Below, one piece after another: positions 2,321 to 39,953 of a stretch of DNA of 39,953 bases (positions within the stretch are counted from its first letter, which is position 1; each line of letters starts with the position of its first letter). The notes under the pieces are model-generated. The model worked only from the letters and a program-made list of their open reading frames with translations, was not told the DNA's origin and searched no databases. The position numbers and the translations under genes are program-made. Source of the DNA: a virus; the IMG/VR virus record IMGVR_UViG_3300034685_000101, positions 1-39,953 of that record. One strand, given 5' to 3'.

Positions 2321-2850
2321 AGGTGGGAGATTACACCCAAAAATACCCCCAAAAAAGGGCCCGAAGTGGGAGATAAGCCACATGCCGAATGGCCTACGCT
2401 AGTTTACTGCTACTAGCACCCCTCTTCAGTGTATATACTATAGGGGCAAAAAACGCGATAAACACTTTCGTGGCGTAGACCCCTTGTGAAAGTTTGGTAT
2501 AAAGTGAGGACAGGTGAGTGAGGGGTGAGTACACTTTAACAGACGTGGTGTTACTATATATAGACTGGGATCTCGGGGGTGAGTACATGAGTGAGGGCAA
2601 ACAAAAAGGGCCGAGACCATTTTTCCACTTTTTATGTGTACTCAGCCTCGACCCCCATAACCATGCCTGTTAATAACGTCCGTTAAAGTGTACTCACCCT
2701 GTCCTCACCTCACTCACCTGCGTTTCTTTTTTCTGAATTCTATATACAATTCACTACAACGGCGTAACACTTTTGCCTTTTTCGGGCCCCTTGCCCTACT
2801 TTTTTCTTTATCTCCCACCGAACTGTGGGCCTTTTAACCCTCACTCACCC
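2321..2850. other. Nested inverted repeats, candidate origin/control region
   Basis: This region has no convincing gene. GGGTGAGTACACTTTAACAG (from 2523, continuing to ACGT at 2546) has its inverted partner at 2676-2699 with one mismatch in 24. GTGAGGACAGG (2504-2514) pairs with CCTGTCCTCAC (2698-2708) and CAGGTGAGTGAG (2511-2522) with CTCACTCACCTG (2709-2720). Further copies of GGTGAGTACA and of the GTGAG core occur at 2578-2595, 2637-2644 and 2840-2850. Outer arms GTGGGAGATAA (2366-2376; also GTGGGAGATTA at 2323) pair with TTATCTCCCAC (2808-2818), next to GGGCCCGAA / TTCGGGCCC. AT-rich TATATA blocks sit between. Such iteron-plus-dyad layouts fit a replication origin or a multi-site regulator. 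Confidence 0.55.
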
Positions 2851-3312
2851 CTTTGGCCTATACCTAAAAATACCTAAAAATTCAAAGTACACACTGCTTT
2901 GCTCCATTCTACCACATCTTTTTACCTTTGTCAACTCCCTCCATCCCTAGCCCTCTTCCTATCATTCACTTTACCTCTTATCTCAATTTCCGTCAACATA
3001 TTTTTGTTTATGTTTTTCTTTCCATCCACACCCACCCCCAACCCACCCCCCAATTGTGGACTTCAAAGCCCCTCATTCTTTGTCCAAAACCCCATCTCTC
3101 GTGCCCCAGAACGCCTCATCTTTCTCTCCCAAGCATAAAACACTACCCCCACCCCTTCAAATTCAATCTACGCCATTCTAGCCCCACATCCCCCCCAGTG
3201 TGGTACTCCAGGCCTATTTTTACCTTATCCAGCCCCAAATACTTAGGTCTACAGCCCCACAACACCCCAAAACCCCAGCATTAGCAAGGCTTATTTCAAT
3301 TACAACCTCCCT
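2851..3312. other. G-poor, C-rich gene-free tract
   Basis: About 460 bp with few G on the + strand and many C runs (for example near 3025-3055, 3140-3160 and 3190-3200). It starts with a direct repeat TACCTAAAAA (2861-2870, 2871-2880). Open frames exist on the + strand but lack ribosome-binding sites and have Pro/Ser/Leu compositions expected from C-rich noncoding DNA. It lies between the inverted-repeat region and the 3314 promoter. Strong strand asymmetry is common near origins, primer sites or R-loop regions; the function here is unknown. Confidence 0.5.
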
Positions 3313-3313
3313 C

Positions 3314-3341
3314 TTGACATTCAGTCCAAAGGGCCTATAAT
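3314..3341 (+). promoter_or_regulatory. Consensus sigma70-type promoter of second early block
   Basis: TTGACA (3314-3319) and TATAAT (3336-3341) are both perfect consensus hexamers, 16 bp apart. The start point would be near 3348. It reads into the 3374-15589 gene block and follows the gene-free control region. Confidence 0.9.
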
Positions 3342-3373
3342 AAGGCTACAATACCTAGAAGGAGGAGAGCAAG

Positions 3374-3976
3374 ATGGCAAAGAAAAGAACAAAGAGATTC
3401 TACGTGAGATTCTACGTGGAAGAAAGGGCAGTAAGAATAACAAACAAAAACGACATTGCCGCCATAAATTTTGCAGCACTCGCCACAGCTACCCCTACCT
3501 TTGACGATCGCTCTTGGGAGTACCTTTGCGTACGAGATCGTTATGTGGTAGGTACCGACACTCACAGGATACACCGAGCCTTCTTAGAAAGTACCATTGA
3601 AAACGGGCTTTACGCTCTTGTCAAAAGCACAAAGAAAGAAATTATCATCGAACGTATTAAAGATGAAGGGGGCTACCCTTCGCAAACAGCAATTGACAAA
3701 TACCTACAGATTACTGGCCGCAAGGTAGAAGTCAAAGAAAAAATACTTAAATTTTTACCAGCTATCTTAGTCTACCTTGTGGGTGGCAACGGGCAAGCAA
3801 TCAAGCCAGAATACTTAATTGATGTATGTAGGTTCCTGCCGTCGGCTAACGTTATCGTTACGTTGCCATCCGACCCCACCCATGGAGTACACATACTACA
3901 TACGAGCGAAAACATGGAGGCTTTCATTATGCCTATCGTCTTAAACTCTAGTAAAATAGTAGAAAGAAAATATTAA
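3374..3976 (+). CDS. Possible truncated sliding-clamp (DnaN-like) protein
   Basis: 200 residues; ATG 3374 follows AGGAGGAGAGCAAG. Two stretches recall the bacterial beta clamp. VGTDTHRIHRAFLE (about residue 58) resembles the TDGHRL strand, followed by ENGLYALVKSTKKEIII; YLIDVCRFLPSANVIVTL and AFIMPIVL near the C-terminus recall the last clamp domain with its PM(R/P)-type ending. A full beta clamp is ~370 residues with three domains, so this would be a shortened form of about two domains, as seen in some phages. If correct, it would tether the replicase to DNA. The similarity is weak, and an unrelated early protein remains possible. It is the first gene after the consensus promoter. Confidence 0.4.
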   Translation: MAKKRTKRFYVRFYVEERAVRITNKNDIAAINFAALATATPTFDDRSWEYLCVRDRYVVGTDTHRIHRAFLESTIENGLYALVKSTKKEIIIERIKDEGGYPSQTAIDKYLQITGRKVEVKEKILKFLPAILVYLVGGNGQAIKPEYLIDVCRFLPSANVIVTLPSDPTHGVHILHTSENMEAFIMPIVLNSSKIVERKY

Positions 3977-5415: not shown

Positions 5416-5808
5416 ATGAAAGAGAAAGATTGGGAACTAATATTAAATGCGGGACGACAGAGAGTTTACAAGCTTAACTTTAAGGTACGATACTTCAAAC
5501 GACCAGATGAAGAAATGACACCTATCAAAGAAGCATTCGATTACAACATTTGCTTGCCAGAACATCTTGAGATTGTAGACGACACCGAAACGATCGATAA
5601 GGTTTGTGTATCTGATGCTCATGACCACGTTGAGCGGTTAGTCTTCCCTGTAGTGTATGCCATTGATAAACGTACGGGCACTGAACATCTATTCGTAAAC
5701 CCCCTTGATATCGATGGACACATGACGCCATTAATCGGATATGGTTACGCAAAGACTATACACAAGGACGAAGTATATCTTAGGCACCTTAGGATGCTTA
5801 ACAAATAA
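5416..5808 (+). CDS. Unknown early protein
   Basis: 130 residues; ATG 5416 follows AAAGGAGGAGATAAAA. It has a mixed alpha/beta composition with a His-rich middle (VSDAHDHVERLVFPVVYAID, then HLFVNPLDIDGHM). The spaced His and Asp residues might bind metal, but no known metal-site signature is complete. No cysteine pairs or membrane segments. Unknown role; the gene lies in the row of small early genes between the clamp-like and helicase genes. Confidence 0.65.
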   Translation: MKEKDWELILNAGRQRVYKLNFKVRYFKRPDEEMTPIKEAFDYNICLPEHLEIVDDTETIDKVCVSDAHDHVERLVFPVVYAIDKRTGTEHLFVNPLDIDGHMTPLIGYGYAKTIHKDEVYLRHLRMLNK

Positions 5809-8280: not shown

Positions 8281-9927
8281 ATGGCTATTCATGCTTGGAC
8301 TGAGGGGCAGCGCATCTACGTGCGTACGCCGTACGAATACAAAGACATCATGAAATCAATAACGGGCGGAAGGTGGGATAAACGAAACAAAGCATGGCAT
8401 TACCCACGCTCTTACCGCACGCTCGATGAAATCATGAAGGCACTGCCTGGCCCCATCGGTCTGAGCGAGGATCTTATGAAACTACTTGACGAGGGCGACC
8501 CATACGAGCAAGCTGCACCGATCAAGGAAGCTACCAACCTACCTAACCCTCCCATATGCAAGGGTAATGACTGGTTGCATCAACGTAGGGCCTTCTGGTG
8601 GGCTAAAGATTTACCTGCGGTCTTGCTTGACATGTGGATGGGATCGGGCAAAACTCGTACAGCAATCAATATTGTCCAGAACTGGTATCCTGAAGGTAAT
8701 GCACGAGTTCTAATAGTATGCCCGCCTAACGTGGTGCCAGTGTGGGAGGAACAAATACAGCAGCATGCAGCTATACCATGGAAGGTTACATTACTTCCTG
8801 CAGGTAAGCCTATCCCTAAGAGGGCGGAAATGGCAGAGCAAACATGGCAGGACACTGAGCCTGGAGTTATTGCGGCGTTGGTGGTTAATTACGAAGCAGT
8901 ATGGAGAGGTAAATTAGGTGAATGGGTACTTAGTAAAGAATGGGATGCAGTGATTGGAGATGAGCTTCATCACATTAAAGCGCCAGGCTCTAAACAGTCT
9001 CTATTTTTTGCCAAGCTCCATAAACGAAGTAAACGCCGCCTAGGCCTTACAGGTACGCCGCTTCATGACGGGCCTCTCGACATATATGGTCAAGCGAGGT
9101 TTCTATGTCCCGAAGTGTTTGGTACAAGCTTCGCTAACTTCAGGGCAAGATATGCTCGTATGGGAGGTTACGGTGGTTATCAAATCCTTGGCTATCAAAA
9201 CTTAGATGAATTTTATGAGAAATACAGGTCATTTACTTTTAGTGTAGGCCCAGATGAGGCACTGCCAGACTTACCACCGATCATCTTTGAACGAAGAGTA
9301 TGTGAACTAAGCAAAGAAGAGCAACGAGTATACGCCTCACTTGAGAATGACTTTATCGCTCAGATCAAAGGTGGATACGTCACAGTAAACAATGCTTTAA
9401 CTAAACTACTTAAGCTCCAGCAAGTAACGTCAGGATACGTCAGAGATGACGACGGCATAGATAGACACGTTGGAGACAGTAAAAAACAACTACTTGCCGA
9501 TGTTTTATCGGACTTGCCTAAGAATGAGCCAGTTGTGGTATTCTGTCGTTTTACACATGACTTAGACGCAGTGCATGAGGTAGCCAAGGCCGACGGTAGA
9601 AAGAGTTTTGAGCTATCTGGAAGGAGGAGAGAGCTTGAGGAATGGATGAACTTGAATGGTGGAGAAGTACTAGCAGTACAGTTAAAGGCAGGTGGTGAAG
9701 GTGTTTCAATGCATAGGGCAAGGTACGTCATAGACTATAGTTTAAGCTTCTCACTTGGTGAGTACAACCAAACACGTAGCAGGTTACAACGACCAGGCCA
9801 AACAAGACAAGTTATCTCTATAGCTTTAGTTGCAGCAGGTACTGTAGATGGAAAGATTTACAAGGCATTGAAACGAAAGGAGAAAGTCATAGAAACAATC
9901 CTAAGGGGGTATGGTGGCGATGCATGA
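8281..9927 (+). CDS. SNF2/SF2-type DNA helicase with HARP-like N-terminus
   Basis: 548 residues; ATG 8281 after TATGGGGGTGTTAAA. An ATP-driven DNA translocase or helicase of superfamily 2. Seen in order: an N-terminal GGRWDKRNKAWHYP segment (29-42) like the HARP domain of SMARCAL1-type annealing helicases; Walker A GSGKT (121-125); VCPPNVVPVW (motif Ia, ~146); the DEAD-box variant DELH (227-230); TGTP (257-260); FCRFTHDLDAV; and motif VI QTRSRLQRPGQ (~497-507), with the paired Arg expected of SNF2 ATPases. It heads the replication module. In phages such proteins probably aid replication initiation, fork repair or recombination. All core motifs are intact. Confidence 0.9.
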   Translation: MAIHAWTEGQRIYVRTPYEYKDIMKSITGGRWDKRNKAWHYPRSYRTLDEIMKALPGPIGLSEDLMKLLDEGDPYEQAAPIKEATNLPNPPICKGNDWLHQRRAFWWAKDLPAVLLDMWMGSGKTRTAINIVQNWYPEGNARVLIVCPPNVVPVWEEQIQQHAAIPWKVTLLPAGKPIPKRAEMAEQTWQDTEPGVIAALVVNYEAVWRGKLGEWVLSKEWDAVIGDELHHIKAPGSKQSLFFAKLHKRSKRRLGLTGTPLHDGPLDIYGQARFLCPEVFGTSFANFRARYARMGGYGGYQILGYQNLDEFYEKYRSFTFSVGPDEALPDLPPIIFERRVCELSKEEQRVYASLENDFIAQIKGGYVTVNNALTKLLKLQQVTSGYVRDDDGIDRHVGDSKKQLLADVLSDLPKNEPVVVFCRFTHDLDAVHEVAKADGRKSFELSGRRRELEEWMNLNGGEVLAVQLKAGGEGVSMHRARYVIDYSLSFSLGEYNQTRSRLQRPGQTRQVISIALVAAGTVDGKIYKALKRKEKVIETILRGYGGDA

Positions 9928-10333
9928 TTCATTAAAGGATTTGATAAGGCAGTATGTGGAGGCAGAAAGAGAAAAGCGTATGGTGGAGGAGGAGTTGGGG
10001 GAGATAAAAAATAAGCTGAACACGTTGGCTGATATGGTGAAGGAAGCCTTTGAAACCATGGGACTTCAAAACCTAAAGCTAGAAGATGGCGTTACAATAG
10101 CACTACGTACCGACATAAGGGCTAGGATTCCTGCAGACAAAAGAGAGGAGGCTTATGAGGAATTTAAGCGGCAAGGTTTTGACGGTCTCGTTAAAGAGAC
10201 CATACACCCCAAGACCTTGGAGTCCTGGGTCAGAGAATATGCTGATATCAACGGTGTAGAATTGCCCGAATGGGCAGCAAAATACATAGAAGTATACGAG
10301 CAAGTAAGGCCAGTTATACTGGGCCTAAAATAA
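9920..10333 (+). CDS. Replication-module protein with coiled-coil N-terminus, unknown
   Basis: 137 residues from ATG 9920; AAGGGGG at 9903-9909 sits ten bases upstream, whereas the in-frame ATG at 9911 would be only one base away. Overlaps the helicase stop. Residues 5-55 form an amphipathic, probably coiled-coil region (EAEREKRMVEEELGEIKNKL); the second half has GLQNLKLEDGVTIALRTDI, then RQGFDGLVKETIHPKTLESW and VREYADINGVELP. This architecture (coiled coil, then GxxxLVKETxxxxTLxSxVRE) recurs in proteins next to phage primases and recombination genes. The exact function is not known; a link to DNA replication is inferred from neighbours. Confidence 0.7.
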   Translation: MHDSLKDLIRQYVEAEREKRMVEEELGEIKNKLNTLADMVKEAFETMGLQNLKLEDGVTIALRTDIRARIPADKREEAYEEFKRQGFDGLVKETIHPKTLESWVREYADINGVELPEWAAKYIEVYEQVRPVILGLK

Positions 10334-10350
10334 ATAAGGAGGGAGTTAAG

Positions 10351-11079
10351 ATGGCGTACGAGATAGTAAAGGCTGAGGGTTTTGCAATAGCGACACAGGG
10401 GGAGAAGGTGAAGGTAGTTCTTGAAGCCAACCTTGGTGGCGATAAGATCAACCAGTTTGACCTTGATAAAGTCACAGTGCCCGCAGGAGGAGGTATAGCG
10501 TGGGAGGTACCTGGACTCATGGGGCCTGAGTCTACGCCTGAAATTGAAGGCGTGATTGTGGGATGGAAGCCTGTGAGGTCGCTGTATTTGACGAGCTTTC
10601 AAGACGCCCCAGGCACTCCGCCAAACTGCTCAAGTGATGATGGTCTTGTGGGCTTTGGCGATCCCTTAGAGAAAGGGATCGAAGAGCGCAGAGACTGTGC
10701 TACGTGTCCGATGAATCAGTGGGGCAGTGCTATTGACGGCAATGGCAAGCGATGCGCCGAACGAAGGTTGTTATTTGTCCTGCGCAAGAACGACCAGATA
10801 CCTATCATGGTAGTGGTGCCGCCTACGTCGCTTAAGAACGCTAAGTCATACTTCTTACGGCTTACTCAAGCCAACGTGCCTTACTATGGCGTAATAACTG
10901 GGTTAACTTTGTCTAAGGTTAAATCTAAGAGCGGTATCACTTATTCGCAGATTGAGTTCAAAGTTAAAGGTATCCTTGCAGATCCCGACGTAGAGATGTT
11001 CCAGTCTTATGCTGAGTTCTGGAATGAAGTAATAAAGGGCATTAAGTTCGATCCTGAGCTGGTAGAGCCCGAGGCATAA
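10351..11079 (+). CDS. Replication-associated Cys-motif protein, possible ssDNA-binding
   Basis: 242 residues from ATG 10351 behind AAGGAGGGAGTTAAG; the frame is open upstream, but that part overlaps the previous gene and lacks a site. Key features: a beta-rich N-terminus, a PNCSSDDGLVGFGDP segment (~90-105), then RRDCATCPMNQWGSAIDG-NGKRCAERRLL (~115-143), a CxxCP...C cluster that probably binds zinc, and PPTSLKNAKSYFLRL. Many phages encode a protein with the same CxxCP-x-W-G...C-x-R-L-L core next to primase and helicase genes. Some are suspected to bind single-stranded DNA, which would suit this phage because its SSB gene is broken. The role is inferred, not established. Confidence 0.65.
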   Translation: MAYEIVKAEGFAIATQGEKVKVVLEANLGGDKINQFDLDKVTVPAGGGIAWEVPGLMGPESTPEIEGVIVGWKPVRSLYLTSFQDAPGTPPNCSSDDGLVGFGDPLEKGIEERRDCATCPMNQWGSAIDGNGKRCAERRLLFVLRKNDQIPIMVVVPPTSLKNAKSYFLRLTQANVPYYGVITGLTLSKVKSKSGITYSQIEFKVKGILADPDVEMFQSYAEFWNEVIKGIKFDPELVEPEA

Positions 11080-11092
11080 TGTTTGTCCCAAT

Positions 11093-11113
11093 AGAGGGGC
11101 CTTGTGCCCCTCT
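11093..11113 (+). terminator. Stem-loop ahead of primase gene
   Basis: AGAGGGGC (11093-11100) pairs perfectly with GCCCCTCT (11106-11113) around CTTGT, starting 13 bases after the upstream stop codon. No T-run follows, so it more likely tunes expression or mRNA stability between the Cys-motif gene and the primase gene than ends transcription. The primase ribosome-binding site begins 13 bases downstream. Confidence 0.6.
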
Positions 11114-11141
11114 ATTACTACCAGCGAAGGGAGGTGTAGAT

Positions 11142-12836
11142 GTGCTTGACTATATACCAATAACGTCAAAAACAAAGAACCTGTGGTCATATATATGGAC
11201 TCTGAAAGATAAAAAATCTTTCTGGTTTATGCTCAATGAGTTTAGCATTGGCAAGGCTAAGGAATACATAGAAAAACATAAAAATGAAACTGACATGTAC
11301 ATCGCTGTGTCACTTTTTAAGGAAGGCGGCGACAGAGTTACAAGGGGCAAGGCCGCCGACTCAATAGGACTGTACGGCCTTTGGCTTGATATCGATGTAC
11401 AGTGTTTATTTAGATCAAGATCTGACCTACCTCGCACCACAGCTGATGCAGCAAAGATCCTTGCTGATGGGCCTAAACCATCGCTGATTATAAATTCTGG
11501 CTATGGCCTCCAAGCCTGGTGGCTGTTCACTGAGCCGTTCATTTTTGATAGTCCTGAAGATAGATTATCTGCCTCAAAGTTAGCTGGGGCGTGGAATGAA
11601 TGGTACAGGCTGAAGGCTTTGCATTTTGGCTGGGGGCTAGACAGCGTCAGCGACCTTGCTAGGATCATGAGGATTCCTGGTACCTTTAATCACAAGGGTG
11701 AATTCCCTGTCCCCGTAGAAATCATAGAAGATACTAAGTGTTTATACACTGTTACAGAACTGACAGACATGATACCCCAGGAAGCATGGGATGCCAGGCG
11801 TGGTGCGAGCGACCCCTCAATATCAGTAAACATAGTGATTAATCCTGATGCTGACTACCCGCCACAATTTTCATCTATGTGTGCCAACATAGAAAACTTT
11901 GCCGCTACGTGGACACACAAGAAACCCATTAAAGACAGGTCAAACAGTGGTTACGACTTAGCTATTGCATCCTATGCAGCTATGGCTAACTTGTCAGACC
12001 AAGAGATATGTGACCTTTTAATATGCCACGCCAAAGAACAGGGCTTTCCCATTAAACGGCTTGAATACTATCAAAGGACTATTGCCAAAGCACGTGAGGG
12101 TGGGCAGCTAGGTTTAGCTCCTGAAGAAACACATGACGTATCTTCTATTATCCCTAAGTTGAAAGACTTGAATGCTAGCGGCCAAGACACTGTATACGCT
12201 GAGAGAAAGTCAGTGTTTGCTCTTTTGTCGATACTCTTTGGTCTACAGATATATGACTTCATAGCATATAAAACAGACCCACGTGAGTACGAGCTTTTCA
12301 CGGAGAACGGCAAAGTATTCTTTCATAAGGGGCAGGAGGACTTAGCCACATCTAACGCATTTAGGAAAAGGGTGGGTGACATAACAAAGGTATACCCACC
12401 CCGTTACAAAACAGAGGACTGGGACGTTATTTTGCAGGCACTGAGGTTTGCCGCCCGTGACGTTGACATAGGTCAAGAATTGTCAGAGGAATCGCAGACC
12501 AAGATGTGGGTGGAAAGTTATTTGGCTAGCCACCCCCCATTACCTGAAGACAACATAGAGGAGGCTGTAATAGCTAGAAAACCATTTTACAGGAATGACA
12601 GTGTTTGCTTTTACATTGACGAGTTAAGGTCATGGTTAATGTCACGGGGGGAAAGAATTCCCCTGCAAAAGCTAGGTGCAAGACTACAAAGAATAGGCAT
12701 TAAAAACACAAAGATAAACTATAGAACTCATATTGGCACAAGGGCACAAACGAGGGTGTTTGAAATGCCAGCGGAAGATATAAAAATAGAGGCGGAAGGA
12801 GGCGAAGAAGATGGAGACTACGAAGACTACGAATGA
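11142..12836 (+). CDS. AEP-type primase-polymerase
   Basis: 564 residues from GTG 11142, chosen because AAGGGAGGT (11126-11134) lies just upstream; an in-frame ATG at 11079 has no site and reads through the hairpin. It belongs to the archaeo-eukaryotic primase superfamily: motif I LDID (82-85) gives two metal-binding Asp; motif II region is SGYGLQAWW (119-127), where many relatives have His at the Gln; motif III DLARIMRIPGTFNHK (171-185). Such proteins make primers and can extend DNA. The C-terminal ~350 residues include no Walker motifs, so the helicase partner is probably a neighbour. The acidic tail (EAEGGEEDGDYEDYE) is encoded across the next gene's ribosome-binding site. Confidence 0.85.
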   Translation: MLDYIPITSKTKNLWSYIWTLKDKKSFWFMLNEFSIGKAKEYIEKHKNETDMYIAVSLFKEGGDRVTRGKAADSIGLYGLWLDIDVQCLFRSRSDLPRTTADAAKILADGPKPSLIINSGYGLQAWWLFTEPFIFDSPEDRLSASKLAGAWNEWYRLKALHFGWGLDSVSDLARIMRIPGTFNHKGEFPVPVEIIEDTKCLYTVTELTDMIPQEAWDARRGASDPSISVNIVINPDADYPPQFSSMCANIENFAATWTHKKPIKDRSNSGYDLAIASYAAMANLSDQEICDLLICHAKEQGFPIKRLEYYQRTIAKAREGGQLGLAPEETHDVSSIIPKLKDLNASGQDTVYAERKSVFALLSILFGLQIYDFIAYKTDPREYELFTENGKVFFHKGQEDLATSNAFRKRVGDITKVYPPRYKTEDWDVILQALRFAARDVDIGQELSEESQTKMWVESYLASHPPLPEDNIEEAVIARKPFYRNDSVCFYIDELRSWLMSRGERIPLQKLGARLQRIGIKNTKINYRTHIGTRAQTRVFEMPAEDIKIEAEGGEEDGDYEDYE

Positions 12837-14472
12837 ATACAGAGTGTTTGGCCCGCCAGGCACGGGCAAGACCACATATTTAGCCAGACAAATCAAGCGT
12901 GCCAGACAAACTTATGGCGGTGAAAATGTATTTGTCACTTCATTTACTAGAGCCGCCGCCATAGAGATAGCCTCACGTGACGGTGTGGGCTTACCTAAAA
13001 CATCTGTTGGCACGTTGCATGCACATTGTTATCGAGCTCTAGAATGCCATGACATTGCTGAAAATCACTTTGCAGAGTTCAATGCAGAACACCCTAACAT
13101 GGCGATAACAACTGACGTAGATATTGATGATCCTTTCGACGTTCAGCCTGCCACAAACACAGGCACTGAAGGCTACCAAGAAATGCAACGGCTACGGTCA
13201 ATGCTTGTACCACCAGAGATGTGGCCTACAAATATAAGGGCTTTGTATAACGTATGGGAAGCATGGAAGCGAGGCAATAACCTGCTTGATTTTACTGATT
13301 TGCTTGAGATTGCACTGAAAGAGATTCCTTATGCACCGAATAAACCTGTTGTTGGTTTTGTCGATGAAGCGCAGGACATGACCCCATTGCAGTTTGCTTT
13401 GGTACGTAAGTGGGGCAACAAGATGGACATGTTAATACTTGCGGGAGATGATCAGCAATGTTTGTATAGTTTTCTTGGTGCTTCGCCTGACTCAATGCTT
13501 GATCCTCCGTTGCCTGAAGATCATATCATAGTTCTTGGACAATCGTACAGAGTACCTCAATCGGTACTATCTTGGTCTGAAAATATAATATCTAAAGTCA
13601 AAAGACGTCAAAAGAAAGAATACAAACCACGAGAGGAGGATGGTAAGGTCGTTGAGGGCAAGGTGAGGCTGTCTCAAGCCAACGCCAAAGACCCATCGAT
13701 GTTACTCTTAGAAGTAGAAAAAGATATGAACAGAGGCAAGAAAATAATGGTCTTAGCTTCATGCGCTTATATGCTCATTCCTTTTATAAAGCTCATGCGA
13801 GAGGAAGGCATAGCATACCACAATCCTTACAGGCTAAAGCAAGGTGCTTGGAACCCATTGAACCATGGGAGAGGCACTTCATCAGCTGACAGGTTAGCGT
13901 CATTTATGAAGTTTTCCAAGACTTTATGGGGTGAAGCAGCAACGCCAATGTGGTCAGCCGAAGACTTAGAGAAGTGGATTCCGTTGATAGATTCTAAAGT
14001 CTTGAAATATGGAATCAAAGAAAAGATTAAAAGGGCTAAGCCAACTGATAAGTTTACCATAGCTGACGTATTCTCCGACGAAGAAGCCTTAACTATGGTC
14101 TTTGGTAATGAAGAAAGAAAGCTTGAGTGGTTTGAAGCAAACCTCACAGCTGAAGGCAAGAAAAAGATGCAGTATCCGTTAAAAGTATTGAAGAAAAAAG
14201 CGTCACAGCTTTTAGATCAGCCACAAGTAATCATAGGAACAATACACAGCGTCAAGGGTGGTGAGGCTGACATAGTTTATGTGTTACCCGACCTTGCTAG
14301 ACCACAAGTAAAAAAGTGGTACGGAGGTGATGACGATAGAGACTCACTTAGAAGGTTGTATTACGTTGCAGGCACAAGGGCCAGAGAAGAACTGGTATTG
14401 TGTACGCCGTCGTTTGGCGTGCATGGCTTCCCTTTAATGGAGGGGTTAACGTGTCAGAAAAACTTATTGTAA
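12811..14472 (+). CDS. UvrD/Rep-family (SF1) DNA helicase
   Basis: 553 residues; ATG 12811 lies eight bases after GGCGGAAGGAGG (12791-12802) and overlaps the primase gene by 26 bases. Motifs in order: Walker A GPPGTGKT (14-21), TSFTRAAAIEI (motif Ia), Walker B DEAQD (186-190), GDDQQCLYSFLGA (motif III, 213-225), QSYRVP (motif IV), TIHSVKGGEAD (motif V, ~478) and YVAGTRAREEL (motif VI). This is a 3'-5' SF1A helicase, shorter than the ~720-residue UvrD. With the primase directly upstream it is the best candidate for the replicative or restart helicase, as no DnaB-type helicase was found. All ATPase motifs are intact. Confidence 0.9.
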   Translation: METTKTTNEYRVFGPPGTGKTTYLARQIKRARQTYGGENVFVTSFTRAAAIEIASRDGVGLPKTSVGTLHAHCYRALECHDIAENHFAEFNAEHPNMAITTDVDIDDPFDVQPATNTGTEGYQEMQRLRSMLVPPEMWPTNIRALYNVWEAWKRGNNLLDFTDLLEIALKEIPYAPNKPVVGFVDEAQDMTPLQFALVRKWGNKMDMLILAGDDQQCLYSFLGASPDSMLDPPLPEDHIIVLGQSYRVPQSVLSWSENIISKVKRRQKKEYKPREEDGKVVEGKVRLSQANAKDPSMLLLEVEKDMNRGKKIMVLASCAYMLIPFIKLMREEGIAYHNPYRLKQGAWNPLNHGRGTSSADRLASFMKFSKTLWGEAATPMWSAEDLEKWIPLIDSKVLKYGIKEKIKRAKPTDKFTIADVFSDEEALTMVFGNEERKLEWFEANLTAEGKKKMQYPLKVLKKKASQLLDQPQVIIGTIHSVKGGEADIVYVLPDLARPQVKKWYGGDDDRDSLRRLYYVAGTRAREELVLCTPSFGVHGFPLMEGLTCQKNLL

Positions 14473-14791: not shown

Positions 14792-15016
14792 ATGATAGAT
14801 TTGAAGAAAGATTTAACTGCAAAGGAATGGACGATAATTAAACTAAAGGCACAGGGCAAGACAGCTAAGGAGATAGGTGAAATCTTAGATCGAAGCCCTA
14901 AGACAATTAAAAATAGACTACTTACTATCTACAAAAAACTTGAGGTAAGCGGAACTATTGAGATGTTAAAGAAACTTCATGATGAGTACGGGGTCGACGT
15001 GTGGGACTTGGAGTGA
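14792..15016 (+). CDS. LuxR-type helix-turn-helix regulator
   Basis: 74 residues; ATG 14792 follows AAGGAGGGGTAAAT. Residues ~9-60 match the GerE/LuxR C-terminal DNA-binding domain: LTAKEWTIIKLKAQGKTAKE, IGEILDRSPKTIKNRLLTIY, KKLEVSG. No receiver or sensor domain is attached, so DNA binding would depend on amount or on a partner. It is the first of two HTH proteins at the end of the rightward block, a usual place for regulators of late transcription such as ArpU- or RinA-like activators. A role in switching on the leftward late promoter is inference. Confidence 0.8.
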   Translation: MIDLKKDLTAKEWTIIKLKAQGKTAKEIGEILDRSPKTIKNRLLTIYKKLEVSGTIEMLKKLHDEYGVDVWDLE

Positions 15017-15021
15017 GGTAA

Positions 15022-15477
15022 ATGTCCAAGTATGTTAAAAAACATACAAGGAGCAAAAATTGGACGCAGGAAGAATATGACACAGTCTTACAAATGGACT
15101 TAGAAGGGTATACACAACAGGAGATAGCCGATCATATTGGTCGTACAAAGTCATCTGTTAAGTCTAAGATGTACACACTCCAATATAGGATGGACAAAGC
15201 TGCGATAACAAAGGACCATAGATTTGAACCAGGGGCTGTGTATTTAATTAGCGAAAACGAGACCCCACAATATGTAGCATTCTTGCCTAACAAGTTTATA
15301 TATGAGGGCAAAATACAAGGTAGGAAGGAGAAGTATATATTTAGAAGTATTAATGGTGAGTACTTACTCACATTCACTGATGCTCAATTTGGTGGGTACA
15401 GATTTGAGAAGGAGGGGGAGGATTATGCCGAAAGGATACGAGAAAATGCGGAACGCAATAAAGGAGGATCTGATTAA
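15022..15477 (+). CDS. Myb/SANT-like helix-turn-helix protein
   Basis: 151 residues; ATG 15022 with a weak site (GAGTGAGG), probably coupled to the gene six bases upstream. Residues ~14-55 (WTQEEYDTVLQMDLEGYTQQ, EIADHIGRTKSSVKSKMYTL) form a SANT/Myb or homeodomain-like HTH, as in phage proteins that recognise DNA through a K-S-S-V-K-S-K helix. The C-terminal ~75 residues look like a beta-rich domain: GAVYLISENETPQYVAFLPN, YEGKIQGRKEKYIFRSINGE. That domain is not recognised, but the pattern is common in small Firmicutes phage proteins. Probable DNA-binding regulator, perhaps with the preceding LuxR-type protein. Confidence 0.7.
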   Translation: MSKYVKKHTRSKNWTQEEYDTVLQMDLEGYTQQEIADHIGRTKSSVKSKMYTLQYRMDKAAITKDHRFEPGAVYLISENETPQYVAFLPNKFIYEGKIQGRKEKYIFRSINGEYLLTFTDAQFGGYRFEKEGEDYAERIRENAERNKGGSD

Positions 15478-17976: not shown

Positions 17977-18259
17977 TTATCATCGCCTCCGCTTCTTCTG
18001 TGGTAATACCAAGTCTTGCGAGCTTACAGCCAGGGTCGAATCCCCATGTAAGATGGTAACGATCGCCATTCTCGTCAACTCTGACACAGTGGGTAGTGTC
18101 TTCCACCCCAATATCACCATCATTAAGCCTTACAGGGTTGATCCAGTTCTCACTCTCCTCGATACACTTTTGTAAGAATGCTTTTGTTTCTTCTGGATAC
18201 ATGTTTAGTAAAACTTCAACATCTTGTTTTGTGTTAATATGTTTGGGGAATCCCCTCAA
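17957..18259 (-). CDS. Small protein after the fibre locus, unknown
   Basis: 100 residues from TTG 18259, which lies eight bases after AGGGGG; the in-frame GTG at 18268 would touch that site. N-terminus: RGFPKHINTKQDVEVLLNMY, helical; middle SENWINPVRLNDGDIGVEDT and HCVRVDENGDRYHLTWGFDP; C-terminus ITTEEAEAMINDTETA. The layout (PKHINTKxDVxxLL, then DxNGxxYxL) recurs in small genes next to tail fibres of Firmicutes phages. Function is unknown. Two single Cys only, so no zinc site. It overlaps the next gene by 20 bases. Confidence 0.65.
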   Translation of the reverse strand: MRGFPKHINTKQDVEVLLNMYPEETKAFLQKCIEESENWINPVRLNDGDIGVEDTTHCVRVDENGDRYHLTWGFDPGCKLARLGITTEEAEAMINDTETA

Positions 18260-18271
18260 AATAAACACCCC

Positions 18272-18562
18272 CTAGGTTAATGTATAATATCTATCAATCT
18301 TTTGTATTGTAGCAATAAATGGTAAATGATCCTGATATTTCTCCATCTGTTCCAACAATACAACAGATCCAGTAAAAAGTACATACTTCTTGTCATCAAG
18401 AACAACTTGTAATGTTAAACATTTCGGCCCACTTTTAGGGTATTTACTTTCTTTGATTTTGTACCCAGTTATAATCAATTCTTTGTTAAGTATATCGTCA
18501 ATACGAATTTTGTTCCCATCCAAGGGGCCAGATTCCTCAGCAAATTCACTAAATCGTTTCAT
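18272..18562 (-). CDS. Small protein directly downstream of the variable-repeat fibre
   Basis: 96 residues from ATG 18562, 26 bases after the fibre stop; the frame is open further upstream, but that part lies inside the fibre's variable repeat. Sequence features: RFSEFAEESGPLDGNKIRID, DILNKELIITGYKIKESKYP, CLTLQVVL, YVLFTGSVVLLEQMEKY, LPFIATIQKIDRYYTLT. It looks like a compact beta-rich (possibly OB-like) domain. It does not look like the four-helix Avd accessory factor of DGRs. Its place is where a DGR would have its accessory gene, template and reverse transcriptase, so a past or present link to retrohoming is worth testing. No function is known to me. Confidence 0.75.
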   Translation of the reverse strand: MKRFSEFAEESGPLDGNKIRIDDILNKELIITGYKIKESKYPKSGPKCLTLQVVLDDKKYVLFTGSVVLLEQMEKYQDHLPFIATIQKIDRYYTLT

Positions 18563-18588
18563 TAAAACCAAAACATTAAATTTAAATA

Positions 18589-19902
18589 TTACGCGGGCTC
18601 CGCCGCCCCCCGAGCCCCGTAATACGCACTCGCAACCCAGCGATAGGAATCCGCAGCCCGACAACGCGAGCCGCAATACGCGCCGTTAGTCCAATCACCG
18701 CCCGCGCGAAGCTTTATATCCGCTGAGCCACCGGCTCCATCGGCGTTATAAAGCGACCCCTTGTTTCCGGGTAGGTTGTACCAACCCCAATTAACTGTAA
18801 TTCCCGGTTGGTACGATTGGTCGCTAAGCCACTGATACATGACTCCTGCGCAATCCTCGCAACCTATATACGATATCATCCGCCTGCCATTAGTATCGAT
18901 ATGCCCTCCGGTCGTGCCGGGGTCTGCTGAACCAGAGATGTTCGTCTCCTCGTTTCCTCCCGCGGCTATTTTCTGAAATTCGCCATCGTCAAGCAGACGT
19001 TTTCCGACAGCACCCAAATCGTCTACGTGGTCCATCCATGTTCTCGTATCCGTGATGGTAGCACCGTAAGCCGATGCAGTGGTTGCGCCTGTGCCTGATT
19101 GTAAATAAATGTCAACCCATATGTTTGCCGATGGGCACCAAACCATACCCTCAGGTGAAGCGGATTTCGGGCGGTGGAGTAAATCCCACACGGAAAGAGG
19201 CAGAATGTCACCAGCAACGAAACCAGACAAAGGATGCCCCGTAATCGTCCCGACATCCGCGCACAAACAATGGAACCCGCCTATCTTGCGGCTTGTGTTG
19301 GGTGCATATCCTGCGGGATACGTTGAATTGGCTGAAAGGATGAGGATAGGTACATTCCCGCTCGATGGCTTGCAAACATAGATGTAAAAATCTTTCCCAG
19401 CCCTAGCCCCAGCTACAGTATAATTTGGTGTTATAGTATCCCAACATACTGCGTTGTTCAAATCTAATTCTATTTCAGTTGGTAGCTTATAAACCATATC
19501 ATCTATGCCAACAATAAGCCCTCCACCAGGGCTAACTATTGTATGTCTGTCGACTTCAGCTAATGTTCCTTTTATTGATGGTGCTGTGCCACGTTCATAT
19601 ACACTTGTAATTGTTACTGTAGTATCACCAGGTTTCCATTCTAGCCCTTCTGGTTTAGAGGAATTAACTGTAAGAAAAAAACCATCTGCTCCTCTGGGGA
19701 GCCTGACGACTTCACCTGGTGCAGTAGCTGTATATAAATCCCCCTTATCTTGTAATATAGCTTTATTTACCTTACCATCTACAATAGGTTTAAGTTCTTC
19801 GCCTTGTAAGGCAATAGCATCTACATATAATTTATTCCAATTCTTGGATTGTGTCCCTAAATCAGCATCTTTATTTACCCTTGGCACTATGTTTCTACTC
19901 AT
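18589..19902 (-). CDS. Tail fibre/receptor-binding protein with DGR-type C-type-lectin end
   Basis: 437 residues from ATG 19902 behind AAGGAGTGATAAAT (GTG 19911 is less well spaced). Residues 1-50 (RNIVPRVNKDADLGTQSKNW, NKLYVDAIAL) are a typical fibre attachment start. The C-terminal ~120 residues have the FGE/C-type-lectin form of DGR target proteins such as Mtd: RRMISYIGCEDCAGVMYQWL, WGWYNLPGNKGSLYNADGAG, then GGDW, GSRCR, GARG. The last ~40 codons carry a variable-repeat signature (see 18592-18711). It binds the host receptor, and variability there would change host range. The 3' half is richer in GC than neighbouring genes, suggesting the lectin part was acquired. Confidence 0.9.
   Translation of the reverse strand: MSRNIVPRVNKDADLGTQSKNWNKLYVDAIALQGEELKPIVDGKVNKAILQDKGDLYTATAPGEVVRLPRGADGFFLTVNSSKPEGLEWKPGDTTVTITSVYERGTAPSIKGTLAEVDRHTIVSPGGGLIVGIDDMVYKLPTEIELDLNNAVCWDTITPNYTVAGARAGKDFYIYVCKPSSGNVPILILSANSTYPAGYAPNTSRKIGGFHCLCADVGTITGHPLSGFVAGDILPLSVWDLLHRPKSASPEGMVWCPSANIWVDIYLQSGTGATTASAYGATITDTRTWMDHVDDLGAVGKRLLDDGEFQKIAAGGNEETNISGSADPGTTGGHIDTNGRRMISYIGCEDCAGVMYQWLSDQSYQPGITVNWGWYNLPGNKGSLYNADGAGGSADIKLRAGGDWTNGAYCGSRCRAADSYRWVASAYYGARGAAEPA
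18592..18711 (-). repeat. DGR-type variable repeat (VR)
   Basis: On the coding strand the codons from CTT (18709-18711) to GGG (18607-18609) fall in two groups. Twelve codons end in T or C and vary at bases 1 and 2: GAT, ACT, AAC, TAT, GCT, GAT, TCC, TAT, GTT, AGT, TAT, TAC. The others (TGG, GGC, GCG, TCG, CGT, TGT, CGG, CGC, GGG and others) contain no A. This is what adenine-specific mutagenic retrohoming from an AAY-rich template produces. A further codon with A, GAG, appears only in the last few codons after the GC-rich tract. Confidence 0.8.
18595..18618 (-). other. IMH-like GC tract and hairpin at VR 3' end
   Basis: The coding strand here has GGGCTC, then GGGGGGCGGCG, then GAGCCC: a 6-bp dyad with an 11-base GC-only loop, right at the end of the variable repeat. 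DGR target genes have a GC-rich initiation-of-mutagenic-homing site and often a hairpin at this spot. Confidence 0.6.
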
Positions 19903-19914
19903 ATTTATCACTCC

Positions 19915-20730
19915 TTATTGGTATGTAATATCTCCATTTTCGTCTAACATAAAAATTTCGCTTGTGATTGGGGCTATCATAGGCATGAGGTCACCATTTT
20001 CATCTATTTCAAAATATCCACTTAGAGCTACAGTAATACGTGTCCATTCTGCTTTGTTATCTACACCGCTGATATTAGGTGCATGGTCTACTCCGACGAT
20101 ATTTGTTCCTATGCATCTATACGTGTGTCCATTATTGAAACTTACAACATCGTTATAATTGTAAACAGTTTCGCTATCCCATGCAGGGGCTGCTGCCCCG
20201 AAGGCCGCTGCAGCAGACCCTGCAGCGTCTAGGGCTGCGGCTTCAGCACTGGATGCTGATATTGCTGCTTTTGAGGCATGGTGTAATGCTGAGTATTGAT
20301 CGTTTTCAACTGGGATGTTCTCAGGGTTTTCTGCCCATTTTCTTGCTTTATCAATGGAGGGGGCAATTAGTGCTGAAGCTTCAGCTGCGGCGTTAGATGC
20401 AGCGAGTGCTGCTTTTGAGGCATGGTGTAATGCTGAATATTGTCCTGGCTCAACTTCACTATCTTCAGGGGTTTCTGCCCATTGCCTTGCCTTATCTACC
20501 CACATAAGCGTTTCAGATAGATTATTAAAGTAAACAGGATCGCTCCACGATACTCCATTATCTGTACTGAAACGAAGATATCTATCAATTTCTACAGGAT
20601 CATCGTGCCATGATATTCCATCGACAGAATATTGTATTTTCATATCCGGGGCAGCAGCACCCTGTGGCCCAGGTGAGTTCATTGGTCTTACAACTACCGC
20701 TTGCCTTAAATCTTCAAAAGGATTACTCAT
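19915..20730 (-). CDS. Tail fibre protein with internal repeats and carbohydrate-binding module
   Basis: 271 residues; ATG 20730, which overlaps the last base of the upstream gene's stop. Two similar units of about 40 residues are visible: KARQWAETPEDSEVEPGQYS-ALHHASKAALAAS (~81-113) and KARKWAENPENIPVENDQYS-ALHHASKAAISAS (~127-160), each ending in Ala/Ser-rich helix. Then APAWDSETVYNYNDVVSFNN, HTYRCIGTN matches a chitin-binding-type (CBM5/12-like) sugar-binding module. The C-terminus repeats FEIDENGDLMP and FMLDENGDITYQ. This layout fits a fibre connecting the tail to the lectin-tipped 437-residue protein. Confident as a fibre; the exact sugar is unknown. Confidence 0.85.
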   Translation of the reverse strand: MSNPFEDLRQAVVVRPMNSPGPQGAAAPDMKIQYSVDGISWHDDPVEIDRYLRFSTDNGVSWSDPVYFNNLSETLMWVDKARQWAETPEDSEVEPGQYSALHHASKAALAASNAAAEASALIAPSIDKARKWAENPENIPVENDQYSALHHASKAAISASSAEAAALDAAGSAAAAFGAAAPAWDSETVYNYNDVVSFNNGHTYRCIGTNIVGVDHAPNISGVDNKAEWTRITVALSGYFEIDENGDLMPMIAPITSEIFMLDENGDITYQ

Positions 20731-21095
20731 TACGATCCCACCTTATCACATGTCACTACTTTTACCTTGCCACAGATGATTGGATATGTCTGTCTGGGTC
20801 CACCAAAATCAGGCGTAGTTAAACTTGCTACCCATACGTAAGAACCTTCAAGAAGGTTGCGTGTTTGCGTTGGTGACAATTCTATCTTGATCAATCCATA
20901 ATCTGTCAAAGTTATCTCGTTTCCCGTAGTCCACATGGTTATTGTGGTCGTTGAATCGAAGTTTTCTAATACTTCGATGGCAAGACTATATCCATTAAAA
21001 TTGAACGGTTGACCGTAGACCTCAAACAAAAACCTATGGTCCCATGTATATCCTCTCATTATCGGTGGCAAATTTTCATGTGCGGGGTATAGCAT
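20730..21095 (-). CDS. Fibre-adjacent beta-sandwich protein
   Basis: 121 residues; ATG 21095 behind GAGGGGTGATATA. Pattern: RGYTWDHRFLFEVYGQPFNF, NGYSLAIEVLENFDSTTTIT, NEITLTDYGLIKIELSPTQT, LLEGSYVWVASLT, IICGKVKVV. This is the common small Ig-like or BppU-N-like domain found just before fibre genes in many phages, probably linking the tail or baseplate to the fibres. No enzymatic motif. It follows the ejection-protein genes and leads the fibre cluster. Confidence 0.7.
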   Translation of the reverse strand: MLYPAHENLPPIMRGYTWDHRFLFEVYGQPFNFNGYSLAIEVLENFDSTTTITMWTTGNEITLTDYGLIKIELSPTQTRNLLEGSYVWVASLTTPDFGGPRQTYPIICGKVKVVTCDKVGS

Positions 21096-21127
21096 TATAT
21101 CACCCCTCTCCTATTATAATATATTTT

Positions 21128-24100
21128 TTATTTCTTCTGAGTATTAAATAAAAATCTACGCCATTCAAATTCTTTGTTGTATTGCTCAGACATCCAATAC
21201 TCCATAAGATAGGCGAAGTTTTGCCGTAGACCCTTGGTCGGTAGTCTCCACCAATATTCAGCTGCAGTATATGATGCTTTAGCAAGGTTTTGTAACCTTT
21301 CTGGCAATGCTTTCTCGCTATCTTCAAAGGCCTTATACATATAATTAACCACATTGGCTACTGATTGATACGCCCCAACTGCAGGAGAAAACTGGTAATT
21401 TTCATATCCACTAAAGATACCAAAGAAGTCTCTTAATAGAATCCATGTCCCCATATAATATCCAAATGTGTTTTTGGCTGACCACTTAGCCCACCTCCAC
21501 CATTCTGCTTCATCGTCCCAAGGATCTTCGTCGTTGGGGCCTCCCTGACGCATCCAAGTTAAAGCCATCGCTGGTACAACTAGCCCCCACAACATAAATG
21601 CTGCAAACCTTGCTACGTCACCCTTCTTAATTAAGTGTTGTGTTTCAAGATAGGTCATATTGCGCAGCGTGCCCATAAATGAATAAAACATAGAGAATAA
21701 TTGGTCTAACTCAGATCCTCTTTGTTTAGTTACAAGGTCGATAGCACGTCCAACGTTTTGAGTTTGTCTAATAACCATATCAGCATATTCTATGGCTCTT
21801 TGTTCACTCAAGCCCTCTTCGATCTTCATGTTATATGCTTCAAGCCAAACGGGTATGGTAACAGATGCATCCATAAACCCTATGAAGTAAAACCCCATCT
21901 CACGTATTTGGTCCATCGTTCCAGCTTGTATCATCCTTTTCATTGTTGCTGCTACATCTCTGTCCCATGACTGTTGCCTGAATCTCATAAACGGGGATTT
22001 ATCGTGCACAAATTTTGCTTTTTCTTTCCAAGATGTTGGGTCACTATAAAATGATATTATGGCGTGAGCTGTTCTAGCTGGGCCTATCATTACAGCGGCT
22101 GAACTATAACCTAAGACCTGTGCTAATGCAGGCGACATTCTAAGACCCAATCCAACCATAGTTGCGCCCATTCTTGCTCTTCGCAGCATTCGTTGCGTTG
22201 AAGTTAAGGCAGGGGCAAATCCTGACTGGATATGATCCAACCACTTATCGAATTGTTCTATAGCATGGTTGCCCAAAGCTCTTGTTATAGCACCTCTAAT
22301 GTCTGGATCATTAATAATACGTCTAACGTCTCGTATAGCACGTTTAAATGCCAGGTCTTCTGTGATATCGGCAACATGTTTAGCCAACACAGGCGTAACG
22401 CTTAACATGAGCTTAGCATCCTCACCCACAGTTACTAGACGTGGCTTAGCATATCCTGCTATCATTGACCTAGCACCAGAGATCAACCTAATATTGTCGT
22501 CCATATTAGAGTTAGTATAAAATTTATGAGTAGATAATCTTCTGTCGTATGCTATCGGGTAATATCCTCCAGCTACCCAACCGTATGGCGTCATCATGCC
22601 TGCAGGTTCTACTTTTTTAGGTCTTAAACCTGTCACATCCACCATCAAAGCTTCAACTTCAGGCCAGAAAGATTCAAGAAATGCTATAACATCTTTAACG
22701 AAGCCCCAGTCTGCTTCAGTCATATTTTCATTTAACCAAGATTCTATGGCTTCCTCGGTTAATCCAAAGCCAGTGATTAATCGTTCTCTGCCTTCCACGT
22801 TCAGATAGTTAAGGGCTATAGCAAGCATGTTGTCTCTATTCATGCGTTCGCCAGCCAAGAGAGATGTGGGAAGCCACTGTTTGTACCACTTGCGCATTTC
22901 TTTTTGTGGATAGTGCTTGTTCAATATTTCAGTTATTCTTTGAGCGGCTTCATATTGACGTATCATAGCTTCGTTGGTAGCTCTTTCTAATGGATTGTAT
23001 ATGGCGTCTCTAAATGCACCAAAGTCTTCAAAGTTGTCAAGTATTTTTACAAGAAAATCAACTCTATTGTGGTCCATGATACGTTTGTCTAACCCATCTT
23101 TGAGCTTTTGCATCAAAGTTGGGTTCAACATACCAGCTCTTTCGCCCTTGTCTACAGTAATAGAGTTTACTTGATCTAGTAAAATTTTCTTTACTTTGTC
23201 AAAGCTTTCTTGCCGTCCAGCCTCAAGGAACTTTTGCTCTAATTTACCAATGTATTCTATGGTTTTGATAGCATTTATCAAATCATAGAACTCCCCAACG
23301 GTCATCTCGTCTATTGGCTTAAGCTCAACAGAATGTATGATATCTTCAGGAAGATCTACTTCTTCACCGAGTGCCCTGCGCTCGTCTATGTATTGCCTTA
23401 AAGCATCACGCACTTCCCGTTCGTTTACAGTTCTACGGCTAGCATCTACAGCATCTACTAATTCTGCTATAACATTAAGCACTTCAAGTGGCAGGCCATA
23501 TGTCTTTCTGCCTCTATTTTGGTACTTTCTAATAAGTTCTATGCCACGCTTGACTTGCTCTCTAACTTCTATGGCCTCACGGGCTAAAGCAAAGTTCTGA
23601 GCTTGCAGGTCTTTGTAGTAAACTGCAGCCTCGTATTCACCATCAAGCACAGCCTGCTCATATTTAAGTGCATACTTTGCTGCCTGGGCAAAATACCTAG
23701 CAGGTGAAACATCACTTACCACATCTCTCAAGATAAGCAGTTTAGCATTGGCACGCATCATTTGTGCTCGCTTGGTTGAAGCTTCAACTAAATTTTGTTT
23801 TGTAGTTCTTGCATCTAAGATCAATGATTCAAGCACTAGCGAAGCAAGCATATCATCATTGTGAGTTGCTTTTTCAGCTATCTCTCGAAGGCCGTCGCCG
23901 AAAGCACCTGACTGTATCTCTCTATTTAAGTTGTCTTGATATGCTCGTCTTATTACATCTGCAATGGGTAATGCTGTGGCAAGCTCAGTATACATTTCAT
24001 TAATGTCAGCAAAGCCAAACATAGCCACAGCATCACTAAGAGAGATGTTGCCTCCTTCGGTTTTATACATGTTTCTAAATACTTTGAGGCCTTCTTCGCC

Positions 24101-39699: not shown

Positions 39700-39833
39700 C
39701 CTTGTTGCGAGATTGCTTTATATACCAACCCGAAAGGAGGAGATTGGTGTAATTGTATTATGCCACATTGGGGGGAGGGTTGTCAATAGGTCGAAGGGCC
39801 TGGAGAGTTGGAAATTGCCCTGGGGGTGGGGGT
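39700..39833 (+). other. Divergent intergenic region with orphan ribosome-binding site and G-tracts
   Basis: GAAAGGAGGAGAT (about 39733-39745) looks like a strong ribosome-binding site but is followed by TTGGTGTAA, which gives at most a two-codon frame; a later ATG at 39759 reads only nine codons. It may be a relic or a leader. From 39818 G-tracts split by T lead into the terminal repeat, and the opposing C-tracts at 75-93 (or 39866-39884) could pair with them. No gene is present. Confidence 0.5.
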
Positions 39834-39953
39834 GGGGTACCTCCGCCGCACGCCAACCTCAATTCCCCCCCTCCCCCACCCCTCGCACACTGTACACAAA
39901 ACAACCCCCCTTCCTCGCTGCTCATCGTATCTCGTATACATAATGCAGAATAT
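39834..39953 (+). repeat. Terminal direct repeat, right copy (120 bp)
   Basis: Identical to 43-162. The upstream flank (39794-39833) is the cleaner version of bases 1-42. The repeat implies that the molecule is circularly closed or terminally redundant with a unit of 39,791 bp. Confidence 0.95.

Follow-up and report, generated by a model that had tools for sequence, protein, structure and literature searches.

What protein, if any, reads the inverted and direct repeats that crowd a gene-free stretch of the phage genome IMGVR_UViG_3300034685_000101? The window analyzed here, i.e., the whole stretch of 39,953 nucleotides (positions 1-39,953 of this IMG/VR virus record), carries these repeats in about 1.15 kb without genes, between a small plus-strand operon that ends near position 2218 and an operon that starts at 3374 and extends through genes for a primase-polymerase, a nuclease-like protein, two helicases and a pair of helix-turn-helix proteins. 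An initial annotation of positions 2321-2850 had proposed either a replication origin bound by a phage initiator or a multi-operator switch. We find that most of the repeats are copies of one short word arranged in a mirror-symmetric array, the geometry of which recurs in related phages under different words, and we hold with moderate confidence that this array (2504-2848) is a binding site for a phage protein, most likely a replication origin.

A single short word in a mirror-symmetric array

The repeats were all recovered within a few bases of where the initial annotation had placed them. The 24-nt dyad (2523-2546/2676-2699) is complementary at 23 of its 24 positions, and copies of GTGAGGACAGG (2504-2514/2698-2708) and CAGGTGAGTGAG(G) (2511-2523/2708-2720) follow one another in swapped order. 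Measured against dinucleotide shuffles of 2321-2850, inverted repeats are in large excess (9-mers, 35 observed vs 0.7 in shuffles; 10-mers, 24 vs 0.17; 12-mers, 10 vs 0), and an 8-mer scan finds the highest repeat density of the whole window at 2501-2900. What had been described as a permuted set of several families is real as repeats, but most of them are variants of a single word of approximately 9 bp, GTGAG[T/G][A/G][C/A][A/G] (GTGAGKRMR), in which GTGAG is followed by TACA, GACA, TGAG or GGCA; the order appears swapped because the left arm runs GACA-TGAG-TACA and the right arm, read from the outside in, TGAG-GACA-TACA. The genome has 12 copies of GTGAGKRMR, nine of them within 345 bp, whereas shuffled genomes hold a mean of 3.6 copies and at most 2 per 350 bp. 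The three extra copies that had been assigned to the GTGAGTACA type are present at 2577-2587 (plus strand), 2637-2647 (inverted, with one mismatch) and 2838-2849 (inverted), the last of which is in fact GTGAGTGAG.

Together these copies form a mirror-symmetric array with its axis near 2611, in which a triplet at 0/10/21 bp faces another at 193/204/213 bp, with spacings of about 10-11 bp inside each arm, accompanied by inner sites and one outer site (offsets are counted from the first left site, with a minus sign for sites on the minus strand):

2504-2533, plus strand: left arm with three sites in phase, GTGAGGACA (2504), GTGAGTGAG (2514) and GTGAGTACA (2525), at offsets 0/10/21
2579-2599, plus strand: inner left sites GTGAGTACA (2579), ATGAGTGAG (2587) and GTGAGGGCA (2591), at offsets 75/83/87
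2598-2626, no strand assigned: central segment CAAACAAAAAGGGCCGAGACCATTTTTCC, through which the mirror axis passes
2637-2645, minus strand: inner right site CTGAGTACA, at offset -141
2689-2717, minus strand: right arm, GTGAGTACA (2689-2697), GTGAGGACA (2700-2708) and GTGAGTGAG (2709-2717), at offsets -193/-204/-213
2840-2848, minus strand: outer single site GTGAGTGAG

Site geometry and word in three lineages

Whether relatives conserve the repeat words had been suggested as a check, and the array passes it in an informative way: three lineages keep the geometry but use another word each. The outer GTGGGAGATAA/GGGCCCGAA pair fails the check. Lineage A comprises the window and four IMG/VR contigs (L008, L010, L024 and L025), lineage B two contigs (L026 and L027), and lineage C a single 11-kb contig (L015) that ends short of the candidate binder gene. 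Within lineage A, L008, L010 and L024 show 96-100% identity over the block 2501-2700, with more diverged stretches nearby; L025 diverges from about 2665 onward, yet has the same word at the same positions. The more distant lineage B (helicase 89% identical) has the same slot without any GTGAGTACA and with an array of GTGACAC instead, and in lineage C, likewise more distant (portal 77% identical), the word in the slot is GTGATGACA. The site offsets compare as follows:

Lineage A: 0, 10, 21, 75, 83, -141, -193, -204, -213
Lineage B: 0, 10, 21, 75, 83, -133, -198, -209, -219
Lineage C: 0, 10, 20, -140, -192, -202, -212

The left-arm spacing 0/10/21 is found in L008, L024 and L025 as well as in L026, and that of 0/10/20 in L015. 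In every lineage the arms mirror each other within 1 bp (facing offsets sum to 213/214/214 in A, 219/219/219 in B and 212/212/212 in C). The inner left sites at 75 and 83 are GTGACAC in lineage B and show no clear word in lineage C, and the plan of the center (an A-run, GGGC or GGCC, then a T-run) is recognizable in all three. At the outer site of lineage A, L008 and L025 have GTGAGTACA; lineages B and C also carry an outer minus-strand site to the right of their right arm, spelled in their own word. The middle site of each C arm and one left site in B are imperfect words. The site geometry is thus conserved in all three lineages, with nearly all sites spelled anew. Each word is also nearly confined to its array (GTGACAC, 10 of 12 copies in the 18.7-kb L026; GTGATGACA, 5 of 6 in the 11-kb L015), and the slot is common to the lineages: it follows the terminator of the early operon and, in A and B, precedes the replication operon. 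Matches elsewhere to the L015 word came without a comparable array.

The outer repeat pairs (2366-2376/2808-2818 and about 2354-2365/2781-2792, with a third GTGGGAGAT at 2323) were dropped as parts of the device: the left copies of the GTGGGAGATAA/GGGCCCGAA words are missing in L024, and these words are therefore inessential to it. A 184-aa open reading frame (ORF) over the right arm in lineage B (L026 5644-5090) was likewise rejected as a gene, its coding signal being weak; of the codons that differ from L027, 12 are changed nonsynonymously and 8 synonymously, and it has neither a homologue in the window nor a Pfam match. Outside the three lineages, an apparently unrelated phage (L073, 3300008517_000418) carries a phased GTGACAC array within 1568-1862 (at 1595, 1605, 1659, 1670, 1681 and 1691), upstream of packaging genes, i.e., the lineage-B word in a different setting.

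A probable origin and the competing readings

Because the geometry stays fixed while the word is replaced, an array read by a protein, such as an origin, is favored. An origin accounts better than an RNA, an operator or a packaging site for the array and its symmetry, for its position before the replication genes and for words that hardly occur outside it. Iteron-type origins have copies of a single short word clustered in noncoding DNA of the replicon, and this feature is present. Two proteins encoded at the end of the replication operon are candidate binders:

14792-15016, plus strand: LuxR/GerE-type helix-turn-helix protein, 74 aa, second candidate
15022-15477, plus strand: helix-turn-helix protein, 151 aa, like sigma region 4 and PHROG 323, first candidate

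Both are 96-100% identical within lineage A, and between A and B they are the most diverged proteins of their block (in the ortholog table, 53-56% identity for the 74-aa and 49-51% for the 151-aa protein, compared with 71-89% for the helicases, primase-polymerase, nuclease and neighbors). In the 151-aa protein, 20 of the 29 residues at 14-42 are identical between A and B, and only 3 of 8 in the predicted recognition helix (residues 43-50, predicted local distance difference test (pLDDT) score about 90), the other five having changed; in the 74-aa protein, 10 of 13 residues of the recognition segment are retained. Since the A/B change is concentrated in its recognition helix, and on the ground of this single comparison, the 151-aa protein is the first candidate for the cognate initiator. 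A fold search with its model returned no match at E<=0.001; weak matches include LuxR-type DNA-binding and sigma region 4 domains.

Under the origin reading, the initiator, most likely the 15022-15477 protein, would bind both arms and draw them together, straining or opening the center, at which the primase-polymerase and helicases would load in both directions. A leftward transcript might take part, given the following elements:

2246-2280, no strand assigned: hairpin flanked by T-runs on either side, where the upstream rightward operon ends
2448-2494, minus strand: candidate end of a leftward transcript, an ACTTTC/GAAAGT hairpin followed by T6, read from the sequence
2906-2934, minus strand: predicted leftward promoter TTGACA-17-TAGAAT with TG before the -10, aimed into the array
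3314-3341, plus strand: rightward promoter of the downstream operon, consensus TTGACA-16-TATAAT

The initial annotation had placed the repeats between a terminator and a consensus promoter; both exist (2246-2280 and 3314-3341), but the promoter lies approximately 470 bp past position 2850. The strong leftward promoter at 2906-2934 had been overlooked. The hexamers and 17-nt spacing of the leftward promoter are kept in L008 (TATAAT), L024 and L025 (TAGGAT), with a diverged spacer sequence in L008 and L025. The hairpin at 2448-2494 adjoins the left arm and is unlisted by the terminator scan, the limit of which its loop exceeds; the same scan lists terminators at the equivalent place, immediately left of the array, in L026 (4919-4894) and L015 (1069-1091). 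With a kept promoter on one side of the array and a terminator-like end on the other, a leftward transcript across it is plausible, and such a transcript, starting from 2934-2906, may aid opening or provide a primer. Lineage C has no clear leftward promoter, and in lineage B the leftward unit may start at a gene for an XRE-family repressor, which lies between the array and the downstream operon (L026 5888-6292, minus strand). Palindromes of the form GTGTATACA stand at the promoter of this gene (L026 6249-6275; L027 about 5490-5515), and a similar one occurs in L014 at about 115-140, near the contig end.

The same elements admit a multi-operator switch, in which the reader of the word would repress or activate the leftward promoter at 2934-2906, the downstream operon or both, with replication starting elsewhere. 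The kept leftward promoter does adjoin the outer site, the equivalent slot in lineage B holds the XRE-family gene with its own GTGTATACAC palindromes, and the best candidate binders resemble transcription regulators. However, some 190-430 bp separate every site except the outer one from the closest clear promoter, the arms contain no strong sigma-70 match, the XRE palindromes are a different word, and mirror geometry kept under three words exceeds what repression of one promoter needs. We prefer an origin because some 470 bp lie between the last site and the rightward promoter, few copies of the words occur elsewhere and the replication operon follows the array. The interpretation initially proposed is partly supported, and the switch appears unlikely. 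Bracketing by promoter and terminator-like end would also suit a large structured noncoding RNA transcribed from the minus strand with the inverted words as its stems, and folding does beat shuffles on either strand (z -5.1 and -5.8 in the window). This score follows from inverted repeats whichever strand is read and, since both strands score strongly, folding alone cannot separate an RNA from DNA sites. Facing sites share an identical word variant in only 2 of 12 cases (four lineage-A genomes), and L025 has lost the 24-bp stem, the pairing of the arms falling from -65 to -36 kcal/mol, while its words stay, for which reasons recognition of DNA fits better than pairing of RNA; the unpaired outer site, moreover, switches word with the lineage, and Rfam 15 gave no match above the gathering score. 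An RNA is accordingly improbable in our judgment.

Arrays of short sites also occur in packaging sites (pac/cos), which would here be read by the small terminase, and in partition or centromere-like sites, and the GTGACAC array of the unrelated L073 lies about 1.3 kb upstream of packaging genes. A word changed at nearly every site would nevertheless predict a diverged reader, and the small terminase shows 81-82% identity between A and B, and 71% with C; about 3 kb, including several early genes, separate the array from the terminase genes, and no ParA or ParB was found among the scanned genes, which leaves a site of this kind about as improbable as the RNA.

Several observations weigh against an origin. 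No known initiator family was recognized among the proteins, no exact DnaA box TTATNCACA occurs in the window, and the array contains no strongly AT-rich melting segment, the AT-rich blocks noted earlier being short and weak (35-80% AT per 20 bp). The two lineage-B contigs are almost identical over the array, and covariation of word and binder is a single comparison, A vs B, because the lineage-C contig stops before the binder gene. Phage and plasmid collections gave no DNA match and no close cultured relative. GC skew, proposed as a check, gave no mark of an origin and was rejected as one: it switches where the gene strand switches and is thereby confounded with the coding strand, and since it follows gene orientation it is unusable for calling an origin. 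Its dip at 2.5-4 kb (-0.36 for 2501-3500) reflects a pyrimidine-rich spacer; from the array to the rightward promoter (2850-3370) the plus strand is G-poor and pyrimidine-rich, without convincing genes, and ORFs in 2899-3284 were taken as non-coding in view of their patchy conservation and low G.

The nearest analogues, and we regard them as analogues only, are three known types of origin. In the origins of phage-inducible chromosomal islands (PICIs) and Staphylococcus aureus pathogenicity islands (SaPIs), two iteron sets flank a central region (PMC6092414), much as two facing sets of words surround a center here. Unlike in PICIs, no PICI initiator gene was recognized, the center is not strongly AT-rich, and the mirror layout is kept under three different words; nor does the array lie directly 3' of a recognized initiator gene, as in the PICI gene order, the genes upstream being small and without assigned function and the primase-polymerase about 8 kb downstream. 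The RepA_N origins of PICI-like elements (PLEs), satellites of Vibrio phages, have iterons in a noncoding region (PMC7145576), and initiator specificity and origin covary across their variants (PMC8263062), but the words here are of about 9 bp and no RepA_N protein was recognized. Origins of lactococcal Ceduovirus (c2-type) phages are noncoding and intergenic; they separate early and late blocks that diverge, give rise to a noncoding transcript and fall into several sequence types within one phage group (PMC7150918). Those types lack significant similarity across groups, whereas here the geometry and part of the center are common to the types and the word array is the defining feature.

More tentatively, and with the balance of our own judgment tilting against it, selection may have kept the geometry of this origin nearly fixed while each lineage rewrote the word at almost every site, together with a matching change in a small helix-turn-helix initiator that resembles no known family, yielding a natural series of matched origin and initiator specificities. 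If the origin reading is right, three related phage lineages would share one nucleoprotein scaffold with three recognition words, and would offer material for studying how a DNA machine with many sites can change its word everywhere yet keep its function. It would also supply a probable origin, along with a candidate initiator, for uncultured phages with a T7-type portal, a group with a primase-polymerase/SNF2-helicase replication block and no recognized initiator.

Genome surroundings

The plus strand carries early and replication genes (1-15.5 kb) and the minus strand structural genes (about 15.7-39.6 kb; T7-type portal, GP7 capsid, terminase and an Mtd-like tail protein). The downstream operon includes, all on the plus strand:

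3374-3976: first gene, 200 aa, no assigned function (identity 89-95% in L024/L025, 61% in L026)
8281-9927: SNF2-type helicase, first of the replication genes block (8281-14472)
10270-11079: PHROG 23155 protein of the same block, no assigned function
11079-12836: primase-polymerase-like protein of the block
12811-14472: UvrD-like helicase, last of the block

Motifs had raised the suspicion that the first of these encodes a sliding-clamp-like protein, which was unsupported on checking. Bases 1-161 of the window are identical to 39793-39953, and these ends could be either a true terminal repeat or the assembly overlap of a circular molecule; a related 41-kb contig, that behind L006 and L024, continues across the window-end position and has its ends elsewhere. 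Two genome scans for a host found no relative. The tail protein at 18589-19911 (minus strand) contains the second domain of Mtd (Pfam mtd_2nd, 4e-18); no reverse transcriptase was found among the scanned ORFs neighboring its gene, and the only long repeat pair in 18200-21200 is a 119-nt repeat at 20234/20378. In the first operon, two 68-bp stretches (1188-1255 and 1614-1681) near the ends of adjacent small genes are 82% alike.
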